From IMG/VR virus record IMGVR_UViG_3300029286_000163, positions 1 to 32,559 of that record: DNA of 32,559 nt; one strand, given 5' to 3'. The notes under the pieces are model-generated. The model had not been told where the DNA came from and searched no databases. It saw only the letters and a list, made by a program, of their open reading frames with translations. This document shows, in pieces, positions 2,024 through 18,500 of this stretch (its first letter is position 1; each line of letters opens with the position of its first letter). This DNA is from a virus. A program made the position numbers and the translations under genes.

Positions 2024-2034
2024 ATTATTTTACA
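2018..2034. promoter_or_regulatory. Operator-like near-palindrome, copy D
   Basis: TGTCAAATTATTTTACA, 17 bp, same consensus as 214-230 and 1442-1458. It contains the stop codon (2030-2032) of the primase-helicase gene and the -35 box of the next promoter. Confidence 0.65.
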
Positions 2035-4375
2035 TCACCCTGTACACCACGCTAGGCATGCCGCCTTGAGCCGGGATTTTCTTGGTCTCCCCGATCACGC
2101 CGCTGTCGATGGCGCTCTTTAGGAGATCTTCCAGATCGCGAGCTTTCACCGCTCCGCGCAATTTCTGCAGCAGTATGCGGCGATGCAGGCTCTTGTTTGG
2201 CGCCGTCTCGATCATCCGGATGACCCGGTTGTACACCTTCTGGTTCTCGTTTTCGGCCATGTACCCAACGGCGGCGTTCTCCATGTTCCGTGCCGACCAC
2301 ATGGCCAACTCGCGCCCCCACTGCATGTCTTCCTTGTGGACCTCCAGCCGACCGCAACCCAGCGCGCAGATGGTCGCCAGACGCACCGCCATCTCCCCGG
2401 TACGGGCGTAGTAGGGGTCTCGGCTGTTATCCTCGCGGATCTTCTTGATCTCTGCCGAGAGGTCGTTCCAAGGGCCCCGCCCCCCGTTCCAGACCAGCTT
2501 CTTGACTGAACGAGGCGCTCCAATCGGAGAGGTTAAATCGGACGGGCTCAGCTGCATTGCCATGTTCCTGAGCGTTGCCAGCTTCAAAGCCAGATCATCG
2601 GGAACATCCCTCCCGTGCTGCGGATCCTGATCGTCCGCCGTCTTGTTGGTCGAGAAAATGAGGAAGCGGTTGAGGAAGCCGTTGCGGATGTCTCCGCCCT
2701 CCAGTCCCTCATAGAATTCCTCGATGGTGCTCACGCCGTAGAGGCTGAGCGCTGGGTTCTGGACCTCCGTGCTGGCCCGCTGCGCCCACTCGGGGGTGAG
2801 GTAGCTCTCAAAACTAATGCCCCAGATAGTGCGCAGGATCTTGCTGATCGACGCCTCATATCCCGAGGCGTTCTTGTTGCTCAGGCGCTTTAGCCACGCC
2901 CCGATCTCGTCCATCGCGCAGATCGACAGCGGCTGACGCTGGAGAAAATTAACCACGGACGGCATGCTGATGAATTCAGATGGCCCTAGCAAGTGCTTCA
3001 GATTTGCCGCGCCCATCAGCCTCTTGATGCACTGGAGGGGGTAATCCTTGCCCGCGCCAGACGGCGCCAAGCCGATGATGTAGGTGTGGGTCGCGCTGTC
3101 GGTCGGCCCGGTCACGCCATTGCCCACGAGCGTTCCCACCACGCCGATAGCCGGGCCAAGCGCCAGCGCCCGAGAGGGGCGGCGTGAGCCCCCAACGATC
3201 CAGTCCATGATCTCGCCCAGCAACCCGCTTGGGTGGAGCAAATGAGCGGGTATCTCGTCGAACGAATTCTGATCGAGGGCGATGGGAGCCGTGCTCACAG
3301 CCCCCTCAAAGACCTCTCCGGTCACGGGATCGAACTCGTCCTCCTCAAAGATCACCGAAGCTTCCGGAGGATTGCGTGGCGTTTCGACCTCGAGAGGGGG
3401 CGCGCGAAAAACCGCCTCCTCGGACATGCCCAGCCGCGTGGTCAGGAACTTGACGGCATCGTCGAGATCAATCGAGAGCGCCGTCAAGACCAGATCGATG
3501 GCGGTGTAGCTGTCGCCGGTCCCGAAATCTCGAGCCCCCTGCCCGGGCATGATCGAGAGGTTTGCGCTTCTCTCGGACAGAGACCGACCAGTGCTCGAGG
3601 TCCGCCAGTGTGCCACAGCCTTGTAGGCGCCGGTCGACGTGCGGGAGCACTTGTGCAGGTTCAGATCCGGCACCCACCGGTCGAGGTTGGCGTAGGCCGT
3701 GTTGTTAAGCACGCGCCAGAATTTCTGCTCGTCGTCGGGCAGCTGGATAAGCTTGGCCTGATGAGTAGGCGATGTCACCGGCTTCTTGGTCAGAACCTCG
3801 ACCTGCTCAATGAACCGCTCGAGGTCATCTTCGGTGAGGGTCGGCAAGCTGTGCGCGGGGGTGGTGAGCAGGGTGCTCGGGCCCATCCACGTGTATGGCT
3901 GGCCGGTGTCGGGGTGGACGCTGGGCGGGATCACGGTCTGGCGGGTGTCGGTCAAAAGCTCCACAATGGTCGTGCGGAAACCCTTGGTGCGAAGCGGCAC
4001 AAGGTAGAAGGCGGTGTAGCCGCGACGACCCCTCTTCTTGACGGGTGACGTCGGCAGGGCGCTCTCGAGGTCCGCTAGGATGTCCGGGTCGTCGGTGTCA
4101 TAGTCGACGCAGGCGACCATATGCGTGGCCGTGGCTTTGGTGCCGGTGACGATGCCGATGTTACAATCCGGCCAAGCTGCCCACATTTTTGCGATGAACG
4201 GCCTCGCCGGATCGTTGCGAAACTGTTCCCACTTTTTCATGGGGTACCAATGCCCCGACCGGTACTCGGACGGAGCCTTGCTGTTTGGTGCGACTGGCAA
4301 AACTGAGTAGCCGTTAGCTGCCAGTTGCTGCCAAGCTGCGTCGAAGGGCGAGCGAGGCTCTGCCGCTGCCAACAT
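2030..4375 (-). CDS. Primase-helicase: N-terminal Prim-Pol, C-terminal DUF3987-like P-loop ATPase
   Basis: 781-aa replication protein, likely to prime and unwind phage DNA. Residues about 10-185 match the bifunctional primase-polymerase (Prim-Pol) fold: GYSVLPVAPNSKAP, NIGIVTGT, the metal-binding pair D91/D93 in VDYD, and IPPSVHPDTGQPYTW. Residues about 380 onward hold a P-loop ATPase with Walker A APSGAGK near 437-443 and Walker B ICAMDE at D489/E490, resembling DUF3987-type helicase domains. ATG 4375 has GGAGAGA in front; the in-frame ATG at 4396 has no ribosome site. It is encoded downstream of gcrA and the zinc-finger gene with a gap of about 23 nt, so probably in one operon. The Prim-Pol plus ATPase architecture is known in phages and mobile elements; the exact helicase class is inferred. 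Confidence 0.88.
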   Translation of the reverse strand: MLAAAEPRSPFDAAWQQLAANGYSVLPVAPNSKAPSEYRSGHWYPMKKWEQFRNDPARPFIAKMWAAWPDCNIGIVTGTKATATHMVACVDYDTDDPDILADLESALPTSPVKKRGRRGYTAFYLVPLRTKGFRTTIVELLTDTRQTVIPPSVHPDTGQPYTWMGPSTLLTTPAHSLPTLTEDDLERFIEQVEVLTKKPVTSPTHQAKLIQLPDDEQKFWRVLNNTAYANLDRWVPDLNLHKCSRTSTGAYKAVAHWRTSSTGRSLSERSANLSIMPGQGARDFGTGDSYTAIDLVLTALSIDLDDAVKFLTTRLGMSEEAVFRAPPLEVETPRNPPEASVIFEEDEFDPVTGEVFEGAVSTAPIALDQNSFDEIPAHLLHPSGLLGEIMDWIVGGSRRPSRALALGPAIGVVGTLVGNGVTGPTDSATHTYIIGLAPSGAGKDYPLQCIKRLMGAANLKHLLGPSEFISMPSVVNFLQRQPLSICAMDEIGAWLKRLSNKNASGYEASISKILRTIWGISFESYLTPEWAQRASTEVQNPALSLYGVSTIEEFYEGLEGGDIRNGFLNRFLIFSTNKTADDQDPQHGRDVPDDLALKLATLRNMAMQLSPSDLTSPIGAPRSVKKLVWNGGRGPWNDLSAEIKKIREDNSRDPYYARTGEMAVRLATICALGCGRLEVHKEDMQWGRELAMWSARNMENAAVGYMAENENQKVYNRVIRMIETAPNKSLHRRILLQKLRGAVKARDLEDLLKSAIDSGVIGETKKIPAQGGMPSVVYRVM

Positions 4376-4398
4376 GACGGTCTCTCCAGAACGCATAA

Positions 4399-4839
4399 TT
4401 AAAAGGGGATGTCGTCGGGCTTTTCGACCGTCAGGTTGAGACGCATTTTATTGCTGTAACTCACCAGCGTGTTGACCAATGCGTTTTTGAAGTCGCCGCC
4501 CTCGTAGATCTTCTCCACCATGGGCGCGAAGCGCTCCGCCGTAATGGCGTCGAGATCGCGAATGTCGTTTTCCCACAGCGTAGCCATGACCGCAGCCACA
4601 ATATCCTGCATGTGCTCGCGAATTGCCTCGTCGAGGGCCTTGGCTTCATTCTCTTCCAGACGGATCGGGCTCATGTTGTGCGCCACCTTCATTGCTAGTT
4701 TGATTGAGCAAAGCCCACACATCCACATGGGCTCCAGTTTTTTCGAGCGGCCAGAAATGCATAACGTGATCGCCTCTCGAGCGCACACGCCGCAGATCGT
4801 GGGGTCTTTTGACCGGCGCCCGACTAGAACGCCCGCCAT
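4399..4839 (-). CDS. Small zinc-binding protein, DUF6511-like
   Basis: 146 aa from ATG 4839, overlapping the 3' end of gcrA by 16 nt. Two Cys pairs, C16-x2-C19 and C41-x2-C44, probably bind one zinc. The spacing and the following CSIKLAMKV resemble DUF6511-type phage proteins, but the match is from memory and tentative. The rest is helical and acidic (KALDEAIREHMQDIVAAVMATLW), ending in KPDDIPF; C-terminal acidic-hydrophobic tips of this kind occur in ssDNA-binding proteins. Sitting between a regulator and the primase-helicase, it may act in replication or transcription, but no activity can be claimed. Confidence 0.75.
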   Translation of the reverse strand: MAGVLVGRRSKDPTICGVCAREAITLCISGRSKKLEPMWMCGLCSIKLAMKVAHNMSPIRLEENEAKALDEAIREHMQDIVAAVMATLWENDIRDLDAITAERFAPMVEKIYEGGDFKNALVNTLVSYSNKMRLNLTVEKPDDIPF

Positions 4840-5423
4840 TTCTTTGCTTTCCCAATTTTAACCGGAGCCGTCGGGAGGTAGCACATTGCGTGATGATCAG
4901 GGCAGTAGGCGGATCCGTCCTGCTTTTCATCGTTGCAAAACACGTGCTGGTTCTTTGCGTTGACGCGGATGGAGTAGAGGCACCCCCACACGTCCTCCAG
5001 CAGCGCGGGCCCCGTCTTTTGCTCTTTCGTCGGGAAGGGGACGACATTCTCCCTTATGACAGACCGCGCAGCCGAAAATTTGATAGGGGCCGTCGGCCTT
5101 GCCGCAGGAGCAGGAGCAGGAGCCGTCGGCCTTGCCGCAGGAGCAGGAGCAGGAGCGGCGGCCTGATCCTGTACCTTGGGACGACGCGGGCGGCTCGTGT
5201 GATCCTTGGCCTCCCTTGGCCGACTTTCTCCACGGGCGAGCATTACGCCAGCATGGACCAGCCGGTGAATTTTGCCAATGATGGCATTTCGGGTAATTTT
5301 CAGTCCAAACATTTTACTCATCTCTTGAGCTACAACCGTGGCGCTTTTGCCCTCGTGCCACAGCCTGTTCAGTTCATCGATCCGCTCTGGGGACCATCCC
5401 GTCTGCCACTTGTCACGTGTCAT
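4824..5423 (-). CDS. gcrA: GcrA family transcriptional regulator
   Basis: 199 aa. Residues 10-60 (WSPERIDELNRLW, EGKSATVVAQEM, TRNAIIGKIHRL) match the GcrA N-terminal HTH domain, which binds DNA. The C-terminus has the family's zinc/sigma-binding pattern: GC148LYSI, FC163, AYC174, H177/H178, then YLP. In Caulobacter, GcrA binds sigma70 and activates promoters carrying CcrM-methylated GANTC. A Pro/Ala-rich linker between the domains (about 88-114) contains a tandem 11-residue repeat. ATG 5423 follows GAGGAT by 7 nt; the frame is open further upstream but overlaps the HTH gene. Phage GcrA copies are known; one in a genome nearly free of GANTC is notable, since it may redirect host RNA polymerase rather than read phage methylation. 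Confidence 0.92.
   Translation of the reverse strand: MTRDKWQTGWSPERIDELNRLWHEGKSATVVAQEMSKMFGLKITRNAIIGKIHRLVHAGVMLARGESRPREAKDHTSRPRRPKVQDQAAAPAPAPAARPTAPAPAPAARPTAPIKFSAARSVIRENVVPFPTKEQKTGPALLEDVWGCLYSIRVNAKNQHVFCNDEKQDGSAYCPDHHAMCYLPTAPVKIGKAKKWRAF
5089..5154. repeat. Two tandem 33-bp repeats inside gcrA
   Basis: Units 5089-5121 and 5122-5154 are identical on reading, and each encodes 11 residues of the Ala/Pro linker. GCAGGA triplet-like runs within each unit suggest slippage. Linker length is probably variable between relatives. Confidence 0.8.
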
Positions 5424-5622
5424 GGCCCGGATCCTCGTAAATATCCGGCCTAAGCTCCCAGCGCGGGATCCCGGTGATCTCGGATATCGCAATCGCGCGC
5501 CAAAAGGGCACCTCGCCCCGCTTCTGCCAGTGAGAGATGGTGCTGGGGCAGATCCCCAGCAGGGCGGCGAGCATCGAGCGCCTACCGCGCTCAGCCTGAA
5601 ACCATTTGTAAAGTTCGTTCAT
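5413..5622 (-). CDS. Cro/YdaS-like helix-turn-helix regulator
   Basis: 69 aa from ATG 5622, preceded by the very strong GAGGAGAT. Residues about 12-52 (RGRRSMLAALLGICPSTISHWQKRGEVPFWRAIAISEITGI) form a lambda-Cro/YdaS-type HTH, with TISHWQKRG as recognition helix. It is the first gene of the leftward arm next to the divergent region, the usual place for a Cro-like repressor, and its end overlaps gcrA by 11 nt. It is the best in-window candidate to bind the 17-bp left-arm operators, though that is inference. No CI-type repressor partner is visible. Confidence 0.85.
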   Translation of the reverse strand: MNELYKWFQAERGRRSMLAALLGICPSTISHWQKRGEVPFWRAIAISEITGIPRWELRPDIYEDPGHDT

Positions 5623-5808
5623 GATCTCCTCGTGCAAACATGCGTCTCGCACCATGCTCCCGTTCCGCGTCCGGCGTCCATCTCACTTTTTTACATTTTC
5701 TAAAAAAATAATGTTGACGGTTTTTGAGGGCGGCCCTACACCGATGTGGTCAGCCCGAGATGCGGGCAGCACCCCACCTACCAACGAACCAACGAACGAG
5801 CGTCTGAA
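5623..5808. promoter_or_regulatory. Divergent early control region
   Basis: 186 nt between the leftward HTH gene and the rightward recombination arm. It has an AT-rich core (5688-5713) including a T-run, TTACA and an A-run. For leftward transcription there is a weak TCAACA/TAAAAA pair with an 18-nt spacer. No full copy of the 17-bp operator is present, only one half-like TTTTTTACA near 5688-5694. No GANTC site. CCAACGAACCAACGAACG (about 5781-5798) is a short direct repeat. Confidence 0.6.
5714..5742 (+). promoter_or_regulatory. Candidate rightward early promoter
   Basis: TTGACG (5714-5719), 17 nt, then TACACC (5737-5742). The -35 box is good and the -10 box weak, which could mean the promoter needs an activator. 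It fits as the start of the recombination operon. Confidence 0.45.
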
Positions 5809-10969: not shown

Positions 10970-11235
10970 GACGCGGGCGTGTCGGGCGTGGCGAGGATCG
11001 CGGCAATTTCTGCGTCTCTCGCAGCCTTCAGCGTGGCGTGCAAATCAAAGTAGCCGGTGAGCGTGGCATCGCTGTCGAGCCAAATGCGCTCGCCCTCGTA
11101 AAGCTCGATCCAACCTTTGGTGCCCAGCCATTGGATCACCCGGTAATTAGAATCCGGAGAAGTTAGGGTGGCGGCAAGCATCGGGACACCGTCCACCACA
11201 ATGTACTTGTCCGGAAAAATGACCGACAGTTCCAT
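10966..11235 (-). CDS. Small protein downstream of the tail fibre
   Basis: 89 aa from ATG 11235, 3 nt after the fibre gene. The product has an ILFPDK-like start (SVIFPDKYIVVDG), then YRVIQWLGTKGWIELYEG and a helical C-terminus (DLHATLKAARDAEIAAIL). The IQW-G-KGWIE pattern is shared by many small proteins found beside phage tail fibres; their role is unknown, though fibre assembly is often guessed. It is the last gene of the virion block. It contains one of the three GANTC sites (11150-11154). Confidence 0.75.
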   Translation of the reverse strand: MELSVIFPDKYIVVDGVPMLAATLTSPDSNYRVIQWLGTKGWIELYEGERIWLDSDATLTGYFDLHATLKAARDAEIAAILATPDTPAS

Positions 11236-12672: not shown

Positions 12673-15506
12673 CAGATCTTCTCATTCGCAATTGCGAGGG
12701 CTTTGGTGATGGCCTCATCCGGCACGTCCAGCAGCGGGCTGGTCCCGTCACTATGCCTGTTTTTCGCCTGCTCTGCAGCCCTAATCATCTTGTCCGCAGC
12801 AGACCCCGGATTGCCCACGCGGCCACCGCTCCGGCGCCCGATACGCCCACCGGCAAACATACTGCCAGCGGCAGGTCTCTCGCCGGGGTTTTGCTCGTAG
12901 TATCTTTCCCACTCCGCTTTACGGGCATTCTCGTAAAAGTCAGGCGGCTGAGGAAGTTCGGGGGCGTACTCCTGCTGCCCGACATAAGAGATTGCTCCAA
13001 GCTTTCCAGCCGCTTTCAGGCTGTCCTTAAAAAATTCATTCAGCTTGTTCATCTTCTCCGGCGTGGGCTGGCCAGCGAGAAGCGCCGCCTTAGATGGATC
13101 GCTCAGAATATCAAGAAGAGCCTGACCAGCATGCGCGCGAGACTTGTTGTAGAGCACGTCAAACGTCTTTATCGGGTCCGCCGCAACATTCATGGCGGGG
13201 AGAAACCCAAAATTTTTGAAGGCTGCAATCGACGGGAAAATGTTCACCGCCTGAGTAAGCGTTCCGATAGGAAGCGCGGCCAACTGTCCATACAGCATCG
13301 AAAAGATCGGCCTCTCCTTGAGAGCGTTCAAAAATGCCGGATCGTTCATTTTGATCGTGCCAGACTTCACGCCCTCAAAAAGAGCGGCAGAGTTCTGCAT
13401 GCCATCGAGCAATTCTTGCTGGTCAGGCGACGTGAAAGCCTTATCAAGCTCATCCCGGTTGCTGCGGATGAAGCCAGACAGGGCCGCAGGCTTCTGATCC
13501 ACAGACCCAAGCACATTAGACAAATCCATGCGGATACGGTCTTTGGCGGTGAGGCCAGCCAAAGCCGTTAATTCATCCTTCAAGCCGGGCACGTTCTCAA
13601 TAAGGATCCTGTTACGGTCATCTGCCATGAAGCGGCGAAGAACCGTCTCATTAAGGCGGGTAAGCTGCCCGCTATTTTCGGAAAGAAGACCGCCCAGAAC
13701 GTAATCCTTCACCTCAGCATCGATGTTGACGCCAGCACGACGCAGATCGCGGAGGTTTGTGTTGATATCACCACGGGTCAATAGGTCCATGAAGTCCTGA
13801 GGACTGCCAAATTCCCCCGCCTTGTTGCGAGACGCCAACGCTCCCAAAATAGTATTGGGATCGCCAAAAATCTCGTGTTTAGTGCGAGTGGCATCAACAG
13901 CGGCTTTAAAAGCGTCTCCAACGCCCGCGTTATCGATCCACTGCGCCGAAGTGTAGGTCAGGTTTTTGTCATCAAACAAATTATTAGACAGAGCGTCATA
14001 AAGTTTCTTCAGTTCGCTCTGCTCAATGCTGCCACTTGGGGCGGCTCCTAATTTTGCGCCAATATCGCTACGAATAAGCTTCAACTGGCTTGCAGAAAGC
14101 GTCCCATTGGGGCTCATTTTGTTAAGAAAATAATCTTCAGCAACACTGAGTCCACTGCGGATAGATGGATCAACACTTTCAAACGCATTGCGTGCAGCGG
14201 TAGCATCATATTCCGCAGCAGCCATAGCGGGATTAGACCAAAGCTGGTTCTCATTGGCTTCGACATCCTTAATGCGCTGCTGGAATTTACCAGCGGCGCT
14301 TGATGCCGTATCAATGGTGCTGGGGATGGCCTTGGGCTCTGCATAGAACGGTAGGGCTAAGTCAATCTCCTCATCAAGATGGGCGCCCATATTGCGTAGC
14401 TCGGCAAGCCGCGCGGTGTTATTTTCTCTTGCCTTAACGCCGACCTCATGAAGGGGCGATTTTTCAGGCAAATCTGCGAATTTCTCAACAGCAGCCTGAA
14501 CCGGTCGAAGCTCTGGAATGACATCGGCAGCGCGAGGCGTCAGGCCTTCATAATAGGGCCTCTGAGCAGCCTTAAGCGCAGCCTCCTTCGCCAAACGCGC
14601 AATCTCAGGATCTCGCAACTGACCAGCCACAACGGGATCTGCAAGGGATGTTGCCGCGCTCTTAGCCGCTGAACTCCAAGGCCCCTTAGTGACGGCCTTG
14701 CCCATGACATATCCGGGCAATTCAGATGCGAACTCGATTGCAGCGCCCGGGATCGTCCCCTTAAGGCCGGTAGCTTCAGTAAAGCCCTTCCCGCCTTGGG
14801 CAGTAAGGCCAGCCAAAGTTGCGGGAAGAATTTCACCCGCAGCAACGCGGGTGCCAGCAACGGCGCCACGAAGACCGCCGCCAACGAGCCCAGCAGCGCC
14901 GCCGACGGGAAGACCCGCCAAAGCAGCGCCAGTGTACTTGCTGACGTCCATAACCCCACGCTCCCAGTCGTTCTGGGGCTGGTAATTAATGAAGGGGACA
15001 CCTGCCTCACGTGCGCCCTGCACCACGGCTTCGCCGGTAGGAAGGTTCATGCCAAAAACATTGCCCGTTCTTCCGGCAAGCTCGTCCGGCGTCATGCCAG
15101 CGCGGGCTTTCTCAACCTCTGACATAAACGCCTTATTCGGGTCTGCGGTGCCTGCAGCGGCGCCCGGCAGATTGTAAAGCCAAGAGCCGACCGCAGGGCC
15201 ATAAGTGCGGGCCAAGTTTGAGATGTCAGCGGGAAGTCCAACCGTGCCAATGATCCCCTGCCCGACGCCCCCGATAGCGGCCTGAGCCGTCCCCACGGCG
15301 CGATCCAAAAGGGGGCGATCAGCCTCCCTCCGGGCCTGCTCCGAGCGCCACGCCGCATCGAGGTCAGCCGCCACAGTTCCAAGTTTTAACGGGTTTAGAT
15401 CAGGCGGGAGCCCAGAGCCAGCCCCCGGCGCAGGCTGCGCTGCAGCCTTTTCTTCATTTTGTTTCTTCCAAGCATCATAGAATGCATTCGGCGCAAAATT
15501 TGCCAT
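12672..15506 (-). CDS. Large internal virion / ejection protein candidate
   Basis: 944 aa. I do not recognise a catalytic domain. The N-terminus is charged (AFYDAWKKQNEEKAAAQ); residues about 60-130 and 195-275 are Gly/Ala-rich and hydrophobic (LPVGGAAGLVGGGLRGAVAG), able to interact with membrane. The middle is a long helical region, and the end has the basic Gly motif GGRIGRRSGGRVG. Size, composition and position beside the transglycosylase protein fit a podovirus-type internal protein injected with DNA. Parts of the gene (around 13.6-14.3 kb) look less GC-rich than neighbours, and one GANTC site lies at 14148-14152. Confidence 0.7.
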   Translation of the reverse strand: MANFAPNAFYDAWKKQNEEKAAAQPAPGAGSGLPPDLNPLKLGTVAADLDAAWRSEQARREADRPLLDRAVGTAQAAIGGVGQGIIGTVGLPADISNLARTYGPAVGSWLYNLPGAAAGTADPNKAFMSEVEKARAGMTPDELAGRTGNVFGMNLPTGEAVVQGAREAGVPFINYQPQNDWERGVMDVSKYTGAALAGLPVGGAAGLVGGGLRGAVAGTRVAAGEILPATLAGLTAQGGKGFTEATGLKGTIPGAAIEFASELPGYVMGKAVTKGPWSSAAKSAATSLADPVVAGQLRDPEIARLAKEAALKAAQRPYYEGLTPRAADVIPELRPVQAAVEKFADLPEKSPLHEVGVKARENNTARLAELRNMGAHLDEEIDLALPFYAEPKAIPSTIDTASSAAGKFQQRIKDVEANENQLWSNPAMAAAEYDATAARNAFESVDPSIRSGLSVAEDYFLNKMSPNGTLSASQLKLIRSDIGAKLGAAPSGSIEQSELKKLYDALSNNLFDDKNLTYTSAQWIDNAGVGDAFKAAVDATRTKHEIFGDPNTILGALASRNKAGEFGSPQDFMDLLTRGDINTNLRDLRRAGVNIDAEVKDYVLGGLLSENSGQLTRLNETVLRRFMADDRNRILIENVPGLKDELTALAGLTAKDRIRMDLSNVLGSVDQKPAALSGFIRSNRDELDKAFTSPDQQELLDGMQNSAALFEGVKSGTIKMNDPAFLNALKERPIFSMLYGQLAALPIGTLTQAVNIFPSIAAFKNFGFLPAMNVAADPIKTFDVLYNKSRAHAGQALLDILSDPSKAALLAGQPTPEKMNKLNEFFKDSLKAAGKLGAISYVGQQEYAPELPQPPDFYENARKAEWERYYEQNPGERPAAGSMFAGGRIGRRSGGRVGNPGSAADKMIRAAEQAKNRHSDGTSPLLDVPDEAITKALAIANEKI

Positions 15507-15510
15507 ATTA

Positions 15511-18500
15511 CTATCCCAAGGAGTAGTAGCGAATTACACCGGGGAACATCTCATTAAAATGAGCCGGGGTAACTATATGTTCATGCAAGGCTTGGATAGG
15601 CGTCATTGTACGCATATTACCATCCAAGTCTTTAACTTGGATTGGTGTCATGGCCTCTTGGAGGGGGCCGTTGTCATGATTATACACAGAAATCATATCA
15701 TTGCTAAAACCAATATCAGCTCCAGAAAGCATGGTATTGTTTTCTTGAGCCCACTTAGTGTAGTAATTACGTTGATCAATCGGTCTTTGAGCATCAATCA
15801 TCAGTTTGGCCATCACCTTCCGAGCCGCCGCCGGCTCGGTCTGCATAGAGGGCAATGCTTTCTGGAGACCCTCGATTATTGCCCCCGCCATTTGACCGCG
15901 CTCAGCCGCGATACCAGAGCCTGAAAGTTGTGTAATCTTGTTTATCACATCAATGGCGGCATTACCGTCAGCGATATTGGTGTTAATTTCTTGTCCAAAC
16001 ATGCGGTTAACTGTGGCTGCAAATTTCCCAATTTCTGCGCGTAGCTCTGGTGAGCTACCAGCGGCTAAAAACCCACCAAGCCCAGCAATCGTGCCGAGCG
16101 CTTGCGATAAATCGGCCAAGTCTTTTCTAGCGGAAATGTACTTGTTATAATTTACGTGGTCAGACAGATTGATCAAGACGTCATTATTAGCGTTGTGGTT
16201 AAACGTGGGCGGGTTGGCGGCAATGGCTCTCGACTCCGGGCTAATGCTGACAGACATAGCCGGGAAGTCATACCCTTCTGGATCGATAATATTCGGTTTG
16301 AAATTGTAATTAGCGGGAAGCGGATCTACTTCCGGGGGGAGGGGGCGCTCTTCCGGCACCGCCGGGGGTGTGGGCGGGGTCGTTATTTCAGGCACCGCAG
16401 GCACCGCAGGAGCGTCGGTGGCGGGGGCTCCTGCTGGGACTTCGGCAGGAGGAACCAAACCGCCGTCCGGGGTTGTTTCGGTGGCGGGAGGGGTTGGAGA
16501 GAGCCCGCCGCTGGGCGGCGGCTTCAGCCCAAGCTTATAAAGCTGGCCCATGTCCATGAGAACGTTTTGTCCAGTCTTCGGGTTGTAAACTAGGTAGAAG
16601 CCCGGGTTATTCGGATCTGGACGGACCAGCGTAGCCATCTGGGCATTTGCCTCAGCTGACTGAAGCTGACGCGACTGTTGCGCGTTCAAGATGTCGCTAA
16701 AGCTATTCGACCCAGCCACTAGTCCAGAACCGATAGAACCGGCAAGCGTCGGGCTGGCAGACGAAAGCATGCCGCCAATGCCAGAGAGCAGCGGGACAAT
16801 AAAGCTCTCGTTATCCTTACCCCACTGGTTGAATTTATCGATCCCCGCCTGCCAGTCGGCAGGCAGCAACCCACCTTCAGTCGATTTTCCTGCCCCCCCA
16901 CTGCCGCTGCCTGCATTGTAGGCGGCAGATGAGATGCCGTCGGGCATGCCCGAAATGTACTTGCGGGTCTCGCCGGGCAAATAATCCGTCCAGCTTCCGC
17001 CGTTTGCGCTAGCGCGGGCAACTGCCTTATCGACATTCCCCATTCCTGCATTGTAAGCGGCAGAAGCCAAAGTGGTGTCGCCGTTGTACCGGTTCACCAG
17101 ATTATTGAAATACGCTCGCCCCAACTTTTCGTTATACTCCGGGCTATTATAGAAGAGGTTTTCATCCCACCTCACCCCGGCCAAAGCGGCAGCTTCCGGA
17201 CCCGTTGACGGCAGCATTTGAGAAATACCAATAGCGCCAGCGCTTGACGTAAGCGGGTTTCCGTATTTATCAAACTGGCGACCGGCGCTTTCTCGCGGAA
17301 CAATGTTCGAGCCAAAAAAGTCTTCGGGATTGTACTTTTCAGTCGGGCCAAGCTCAGCCGTTCCAGCAGCGGTAGGAACGAGAGCCCTTCTCTCTGTAGG
17401 AGCAATATTGGGTCTATCCTCGGGGTTGCGGGGTGTTGGGGGCACTAGCCCCGGCTGGACCTCTCGGGTGCCTGCGGGCGCACCACCGGAGACACTCGCG
17501 GGCGAGAAGATCTGACCGATGCCAGCGGCATCTTCAGGGGAAAGGCCAGTATCCCCTTCGGTCAATTTCTTACGGAGTACTTCTTTAGGATCTACATCGA
17601 CAGCGCCGGTATTGGCGTACCCACGCCGACCGGCAACGCCGCCATTCGCCATGAAGCTGCCAATGATTTTGGCGATATCCGCGACCTTGCTCAGGCCGCT
17701 CTGGGCTTCCCCCGAGCTTTTCGGCTGAAGCAGTTCCGGGGTTTCCGTGGGCGCATTATTCGGCACGTAGCCCGTATTCTGGGGGTCGTAAGGCATGCCA
17801 CCAGAGGCGAGGCCGGGGCGAATTGCGCCGCCACGCGCATGAAGGTTAGTTGGGTTTTCGTCCAAGTCCTCAAAAACGTCGGGGTCGACAGAAGGTGACT
17901 TCGGTTTGTTCTCGTCCCACCATTTCCCGGCCTCTTTCGCGCCCTCATAAATCTTCCCCCCGGTGTCGACCAAATCAGAGATAGAAGTCTGCGGGGCGCT
18001 CTGCGAGATTTTTGCAGGGTTAAGCTGGCCGACCGGCAGGTTCGCTGGCGGTACAAACCCGCTCATGCCTATCCCTGTATTACCCTGCCCATAGGCCCCT
18101 GCATTCGGGTCCATGCCGCCGAAAAGCTGCTGCATGACCATGGAGGCATAATTCATCTGCGGAGCGCCGCCGTCGGCGTAGCCCTCGCCCATGTGCCCTG
18201 CGTTGACGTGCCCGCCCATGCTCTCGGGGACGAGACCGCCGCGCCGGTAGCTGACGCCCTCGACGACCTTCCCGCCGCGCTTGAGGCCAGAGAAGAACCC
18301 GGCAGGTTTCGTTTCCGTCGTGGTCGAGCCGGACAGGGCGCCCGTACCCATACCAATGTTGCCAAGGAACTGAGTGGTTTGGAACGGATAAGCGCGTTCC
18401 TGCTGGTACTGGTTATAGAGGGCAGACTTACCCGCCTGCTCGGTCTGCTGCTCCTGCGTGCCAGCACCAAGCAGGGCCTGACTTCCCGCCAAGGCGGCAC

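Follow-up and report, generated by a model that had tools for sequence, protein, structure and literature searches.

GcrA is a bacterial cell-cycle activator, and phage-encoded homologues of it are widespread; we counted no fewer than 265 such coding stretches in viral contigs. Among alphaproteobacteria, GcrA orthologues can substitute for one another in complementation, and they bind targets that are methylated (PMC3667746). Caulobacter phage phiCbK encodes such a protein, gp222, for which reprogramming of host replication has been proposed (Gill et al. 2012, PMC3556154), and the lytic alphaproteobacterial brucellaphage Y17 carries GcrA-like genes as ORF4 and ORF5 (PMC11836647). We found no experimental work on any phage GcrA in the literature.

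Here we analyzed a linear IMG/VR virus record of 32,559 nt, whose full length is called the window below, which encodes a 199-aa GcrA homologue on its minus strand. Like phiCbK gp222, this protein consists of a DNA-binding domain, a linker, and a Cys/His sigma-interacting domain (SID), whereas gp222 has a drifted recognition helix (TKSAVCGKADRL) and a SID that keeps W-P-x-GDP, and phiCbK itself is a giant siphophage that lacks the window's operon and has GANTC at 0.18 of expectation in a 49-kb piece. Brucellaphage Y17, by description a lytic phage of an alphaproteobacterium, resembles the window in having GcrA-like genes but has two copies. Roseobacter phage CRP-901 (OQ401623) shares the window's layout, in which an HTH gene heads a leftward primase unit divergent from genes for an ATP-binding protein, DUF669, an exonuclease, and a helicase; it differs in lacking both gcrA and ORF146 and in having GANTC at 0.35 of expectation, and its HTH protein gave no match when compared with the window's HTH protein. 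With C. crescentus GcrA (PDB 5yiu, 5yiv, 5yix, 7ye1), the window's protein has in common the domain order, the recognition helix, and the Cys/Cys/Cys/His set, and it departs from that protein by five residues inserted ahead of the recognition helix, nine replaced host-invariant SID residues, and tandem repeats in the linker. Phage-encoded gcrA is thus already known from phiCbK and Y17; the interesting part of this locus is the rewritten sigma-facing surface.

A leftward operon with gcrA

Four genes lie head to tail on the minus strand: a 69-aa Cro/YdaS-like HTH regulator that heads the leftward early operon (5413–5622), gcrA (4824–5423), ORF146, which encodes a CxxC-containing protein (4399–4839; phrog_19707), and a primase-polymerase with a DUF3987-type region that closes the unit (2030–4396; Prim-Pol PF09250, phrog_3022, E 4.5e-72). 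In profile searches, the HTH protein matched PF15943 at 37.4 bits (cut-off 30) and PF07022 at 27.6 bits (cut-off 22), and GcrA matched PF07750 at 66.4 bits (cut-off 26.9; E 4.8e-18). Four relatives keep the HTH protein at 60–90% identity and GcrA at 81, 80, 80, and 46%. The HTH gene and gcrA overlap by 11 nt (5413–5423, minus strand, as read from the sequence), gcrA and ORF146 overlap by 16 nt, and a 2-nt gap separates ORF146 from the primase gene. The initial annotation had placed the gcrA start inside the Cro/YdaS-like gene, and we confirmed this placement; the called start is supported because the corresponding codon also opens the gene in relatives (ATG in L002, GTG in L003 and L005), and GAGG can be read directly upstream of it.

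The initial annotation had also concluded that the overlap makes the two regulators co-produced. The tight operon and its retained order uphold this view, and HTH and GcrA are probably co-expressed, but the overlap itself is a variable feature. The HTH gene immediately precedes gcrA in the four relatives and also in the distant L091 and L193, whose GcrA proteins are about 30–32% identical to the window's, and the order HTH–gcrA–ORF146–primase is retained in relatives down to a GcrA identity of ~30%. The junction is an 11-nt overlap in L002, L003, and L005, an 8-nt overlap in L004, a 4-nt overlap in L091, and a 4-nt gap in L193; adjacency is therefore conserved and the overlap is not. Short overlaps are common among phage gcrA genes in general, and the YdaS and Cro profiles each match 3 of the 59 upstream neighbors scanned. 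The HTH gene is also present without gcrA in L187–L189, and the two are separable modules. Two of the 59 upstream neighbors match N6/N4 DNA methylases (PF01555), which makes phage methylase–GcrA pairs possible, and two others match a DnaA-type HTH.

ORF146 is co-conserved with the primase. It is better conserved than gcrA (97% identity to L002), and in L092 it stands beside the primase with neither HTH nor gcrA between the helicase gene and ORF146.

A divergent regulatory gap without GANTC (5623–5808) separates the HTH–gcrA side from plus-strand recombination genes, which encode a Sak4-like AAA protein, a DUF669/SSB-like protein, a Cas4-type exonuclease, a helicase, and RusA. We looked opposite the HTH gene for the CI-type repressor expected of a lysogeny switch, and in the window that place is taken by a 108-aa ORF/AAA unit; the HTH homologue of L187 does face an HTH repressor gene. 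The window's HTH protein probably works like Cro, and its membership of a lysogeny switch is unsupported in the window. Matches to the integrase profile PF00589 are absent from the window and its four relatives, as are matches to the N6/N4 (GANTC-type) methylase profile PF01555 in these possibly incomplete records. Relatives of 33.6 and 55.6 kb are colinear with the window, and both ends of the 55.6-kb relative map to adjacent window positions (6643 and 6665), indicating a nearly complete record with circular permutation. The best matches of the window's virion proteins include Puniceispirillum phage HMO-2011 and those of its primase are rhizobial phages, which together with the presence of gcrA suggests an alphaproteobacterial host.

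Domains of the phage GcrA and their constraint

The DNA-binding domain (aa 10–60; 5244–5396, minus strand) is modeled by AlphaFold with a pLDDT above 90, compared to a mean of 74.7 for the whole protein, and the best PDB match of its predicted fold is the C. crescentus GcrA DNA-binding domain (5yiu/5yiv; Z 7.5/7.2, rmsd 1.3/1.0). Compared to 48 bacterial GcrA proteins, it keeps 17 of 23 near-invariant residues, and its recognition helix alone retains 9 of 10 (TRNAIIGKIHRL, aa 44–55, 5259–5294, minus strand; TRNAVIGKVHRL in C. crescentus). Our scans for viral and host GcrA proteins used the search pattern TRN[AS][IV]IGK, which makes helix invariance in those sets partly a matter of construction; the helix comparison rests on named phages plus L091 and L193, which were found by other genes. 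The helix has drifted in phiCbK, Domovoi, and JY42, and since these named phages were found otherwise, its retention in the window is informative.

At the other end, the SID (aa 138–190; 4854–5012, minus strand) keeps C148, C163, C174, and H177, and its model matches 5yix_B modestly (Z 5.4, rmsd 2.3, 45 aligned). Only 5 of 14 near-invariant residues of the 48 bacterial proteins are kept (C, C, Y, C, and H), and the other nine are replaced (W120Y, P121S, G123R, D124V, P125N, F130H, G134N, A150C, and Q152L in C. crescentus numbering). Eight of these nine changes occur throughout the close clade, and most are also found in L091. One of the nine lies at position 153 of the window's protein, which is Gly in the near relatives and in over 90% of 50 aligned GcrA proteins and so nearly invariant in phages and hosts alike; the window's Arg there is unique among close relatives. 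As judged by alignment, the sigma-facing end is unlike that of bacterial GcrA, and the replacements suggest that sigma70 binding may be altered; they weaken the label of canonical sigma70 cofactor and leave GcrA family membership untouched. The initial annotation had described both ends as intact, which our comparisons bear out for the recognition helix of the DNA-binding end and for the Cys/His residues of the sigma-binding end; for the remainder of the latter, with nine residues replaced, the word is too strong.

Variation at the C-terminus takes other forms as well. In L003 and L005, GcrA ends six residues earlier at a stop codon and lacks KKWRAL, and L092 has a short open frame (L092:6093–6461), between its exonuclease and helicase genes, whose resemblance to GcrA is confined to the C-terminal Cys/His part.

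Between the recognition helix and the first Cys lies an Ala/Pro-rich linker of 92 aa (4983–5258, minus strand). As first noted, it contains two identical 33-bp repeats (5090–5122 and 5123–5155, minus strand; TRF score 139); each codes for 11 residues of an APAPAPAARPT repeat. The proposed length variability of the linker also held when relatives were compared, as it measures 78 aa in L002, L003, and L005, where the repeat is not tandem, and 105 aa in L004, which has a 30-nt tandem duplication of its own (PAPTTTKPPV twice). The GcrA linker has been described as unstructured (PMC7403470), and its length ranges family-wide from 55 to 116 in phages and from 54 to 113 in bacteria; changes in linker length through small duplications are therefore nothing unusual in this family.

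Of the operon's proteins, GcrA evolves fastest (81% identity to L002, compared to 97% for ORF146), and both of its domains are under purifying selection. The dN/dS ratio was 0.22–0.26 for gcrA as a whole, 0.20–0.37 for residues 1–61, and 0.10–0.15 for the sigma-interacting part, so that within the protein constraint is strongest on the SID. Both domains are therefore probably used.

Missing palindromes and phage promoters

The genome had been noted as free of GANTC, and this is nearly so: the window has three sites, compared to 134 ± 10 in shuffled sequences and a Markov expectation of 132.9, and all three lie inside coding sequences (11150–11154, 14148–14152, and 16232–16236, plus strand). 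CCWGG is absent (85.5 expected), as are CCGCGG, CGGCCG, and CGATCG, and GCCGGC occurs twice; GANTC is thus just one of several lost palindromes. The near relatives all share the loss of GANTC and CCWGG, and the window and these relatives, all with gcrA, have GANTC at 0–0.11 of expectation. These losses are most simply explained if the genome avoids the sites of type II restriction enzymes.

The link between gcrA and GANTC loss that the initial annotation implied fails on comparison. The cassette-bearing L091 and L193 have GANTC at 0.42 and 0.45 of expectation (with no and one CCWGG, respectively), whereas Rhodobacter phage RcTitan, with no gcrA match, has GANTC 1/152 and no CCWGG. These values, together with the window's own loss of CCWGG, led us to reject a purge of GANTC as a partner of gcrA. 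The gcrA-negative L260 has GANTC 1/49, and the median GANTC ratio was 0.28 in 70 gcrA-positive viral loci and 0.32 in 77 alphaproteobacterial chromosome pieces. A Mann–Whitney comparison of gcrA-positive and gcrA-negative helicase relatives gave p 0.003, a value that we set aside as evidence, for a sample in which the gcrA-negative set is bimodal and probably mixes host groups, some loci overlap on the same contig, and 2 of 10 gcrA-positive calls are weak (L092, C-terminal part only, and L243). In pelagiphages, GANTC depletion has been reported without reference to gcrA (PMC9516812). GANTC depletion says little about the role of GcrA, except that GANTC at this phage's promoters is not available to GcrA.

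Those promoters share a 17-bp palindrome, TGTAAAATNATTTTACA. Copies with no more than one mismatch lie at 214, 1442, and 2018 (about zero expected by chance), and a weaker one lies at 1471. The sites, which relatives have in the same positions, are on the minus strand, within intergenic promoter spacers that belong to the leftward unit: TGTAAAATAATTTGACA at 2018–2034 (same place in L002, G002, and G004), a site at 1442–1458 that exactly fills the TTGACC–TACAAA spacer, the weaker site with four mismatches at 1471–1487, and TGTAAAATGACTTTACA at 214–230. It is plausible that this palindrome is an operator for the HTH protein. We also considered a conserved GANTC in the HTH promoter and rejected it; L091 has one (8783), at the place where L193 has GATTT. 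In related phages, small early genes are preceded by copies of another promoter block, TTTTTTGTAGACTCAATTCTTAG or a form of it with AACTAAGAAT (L091:13020 and 13702; L193 reverse strand, 11310 and 11882).

Possible roles of the phage GcrA

We propose that this phage, probably of an alphaproteobacterium, expresses the Cro-like HTH protein, GcrA, ORF146, and the primase from a short early operon, in which the HTH protein would tune the phage's own early promoters through the 17-bp palindromic operators. The GcrA C-terminal domain would dock on domain 2 of host sigma70, and the host-like recognition helix would steer RNA polymerase to host promoters with methylated GANTC, perhaps pushing the host towards its replication program as phage DNA replication starts. 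The near absence of GANTC from the phage genome, with none outside genes in the window, suggests that GcrA works in trans on the host, and retention of the cassette down to ~30% GcrA identity at GANTC contents from 0 to 0.45 of expectation suggests a value independent of GANTC in the phage genome. Action in trans on methylated host promoters, via sigma70, is the most probable of the readings that we considered, at about even odds; the nine SID replacements and the modest SID fold match count against it. The initial annotation had offered action on host promoters or recognition of a site other than GANTC, and the resemblance of the recognition helix to that of hosts makes the second option the less likely one.

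The main rival reading is that the protein competes with host GcrA, reading methylated GANTC promoters without activation through sigma70, and so blocks or displaces host GcrA and stalls the cell-cycle program in a dominant-negative manner. A host-like helix joined to a SID altered mostly clade-wide is what such a competitor might look like, and phages do keep the DNA-binding parts of GcrA without a canonical SID, as in MD18, whose GcrA-like protein lacks the SID, and Domovoi, whose GcrA-like protein lacks its Cys residues. However, the strong constraint on the SID and its retained Cys/Cys/Cys/His set and predicted fold suggest binding to something, and we consider a competitor unlikely. Still less probable is that GcrA, with or without the HTH protein, acts at a non-GANTC site in promoters of the phage itself: the shared palindrome between −35 and −10, and the different motif that relatives keep at the same kind of place, would fit such a role, but a near-perfect palindrome suits a dimeric Cro-like HTH protein, whose gene is present, better than it suits GcrA, the recognition helix hardly differs from that of a GANTC-reading GcrA, and the GANTC at the −10 of the L091 HTH promoter is not shared by L193.

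Removal of GANTC because of gcrA, to bar GcrA of either phage or host, or CcrM, from phage DNA, would agree with the low values in the window and its near relatives. This explanation is largely refuted, and we judge it very improbable, as other palindromes are missing too, L091 and L193 keep GANTC alongside gcrA, RcTitan and L260 nearly lack it without gcrA, and gcrA-positive loci resemble host chromosome pieces. That gcrA is a functionless passenger is scarcely credible: its rapid evolution within the operon might be taken as a sign of this, but dN/dS is well below 1 in every segment and the cassette is conserved over large divergence.

One tentative reading of action in trans is that the phage GcrA has kept its reader of an epigenetic mark, with a rewritten sigma70-facing surface and a genome nearly free of that mark, and rewires or blocks the host CcrM–GcrA system purely in trans. 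The comparisons also carry a caution, that GANTC loss is a poor signature of GcrA: it occurs with or without gcrA, is missing from some gcrA carriers, and in this genome accompanies the loss of other palindromes. Should this GcrA act although the phage promoters lack GANTC, its targets would have to be host sequences, which makes the phage a clean test case.
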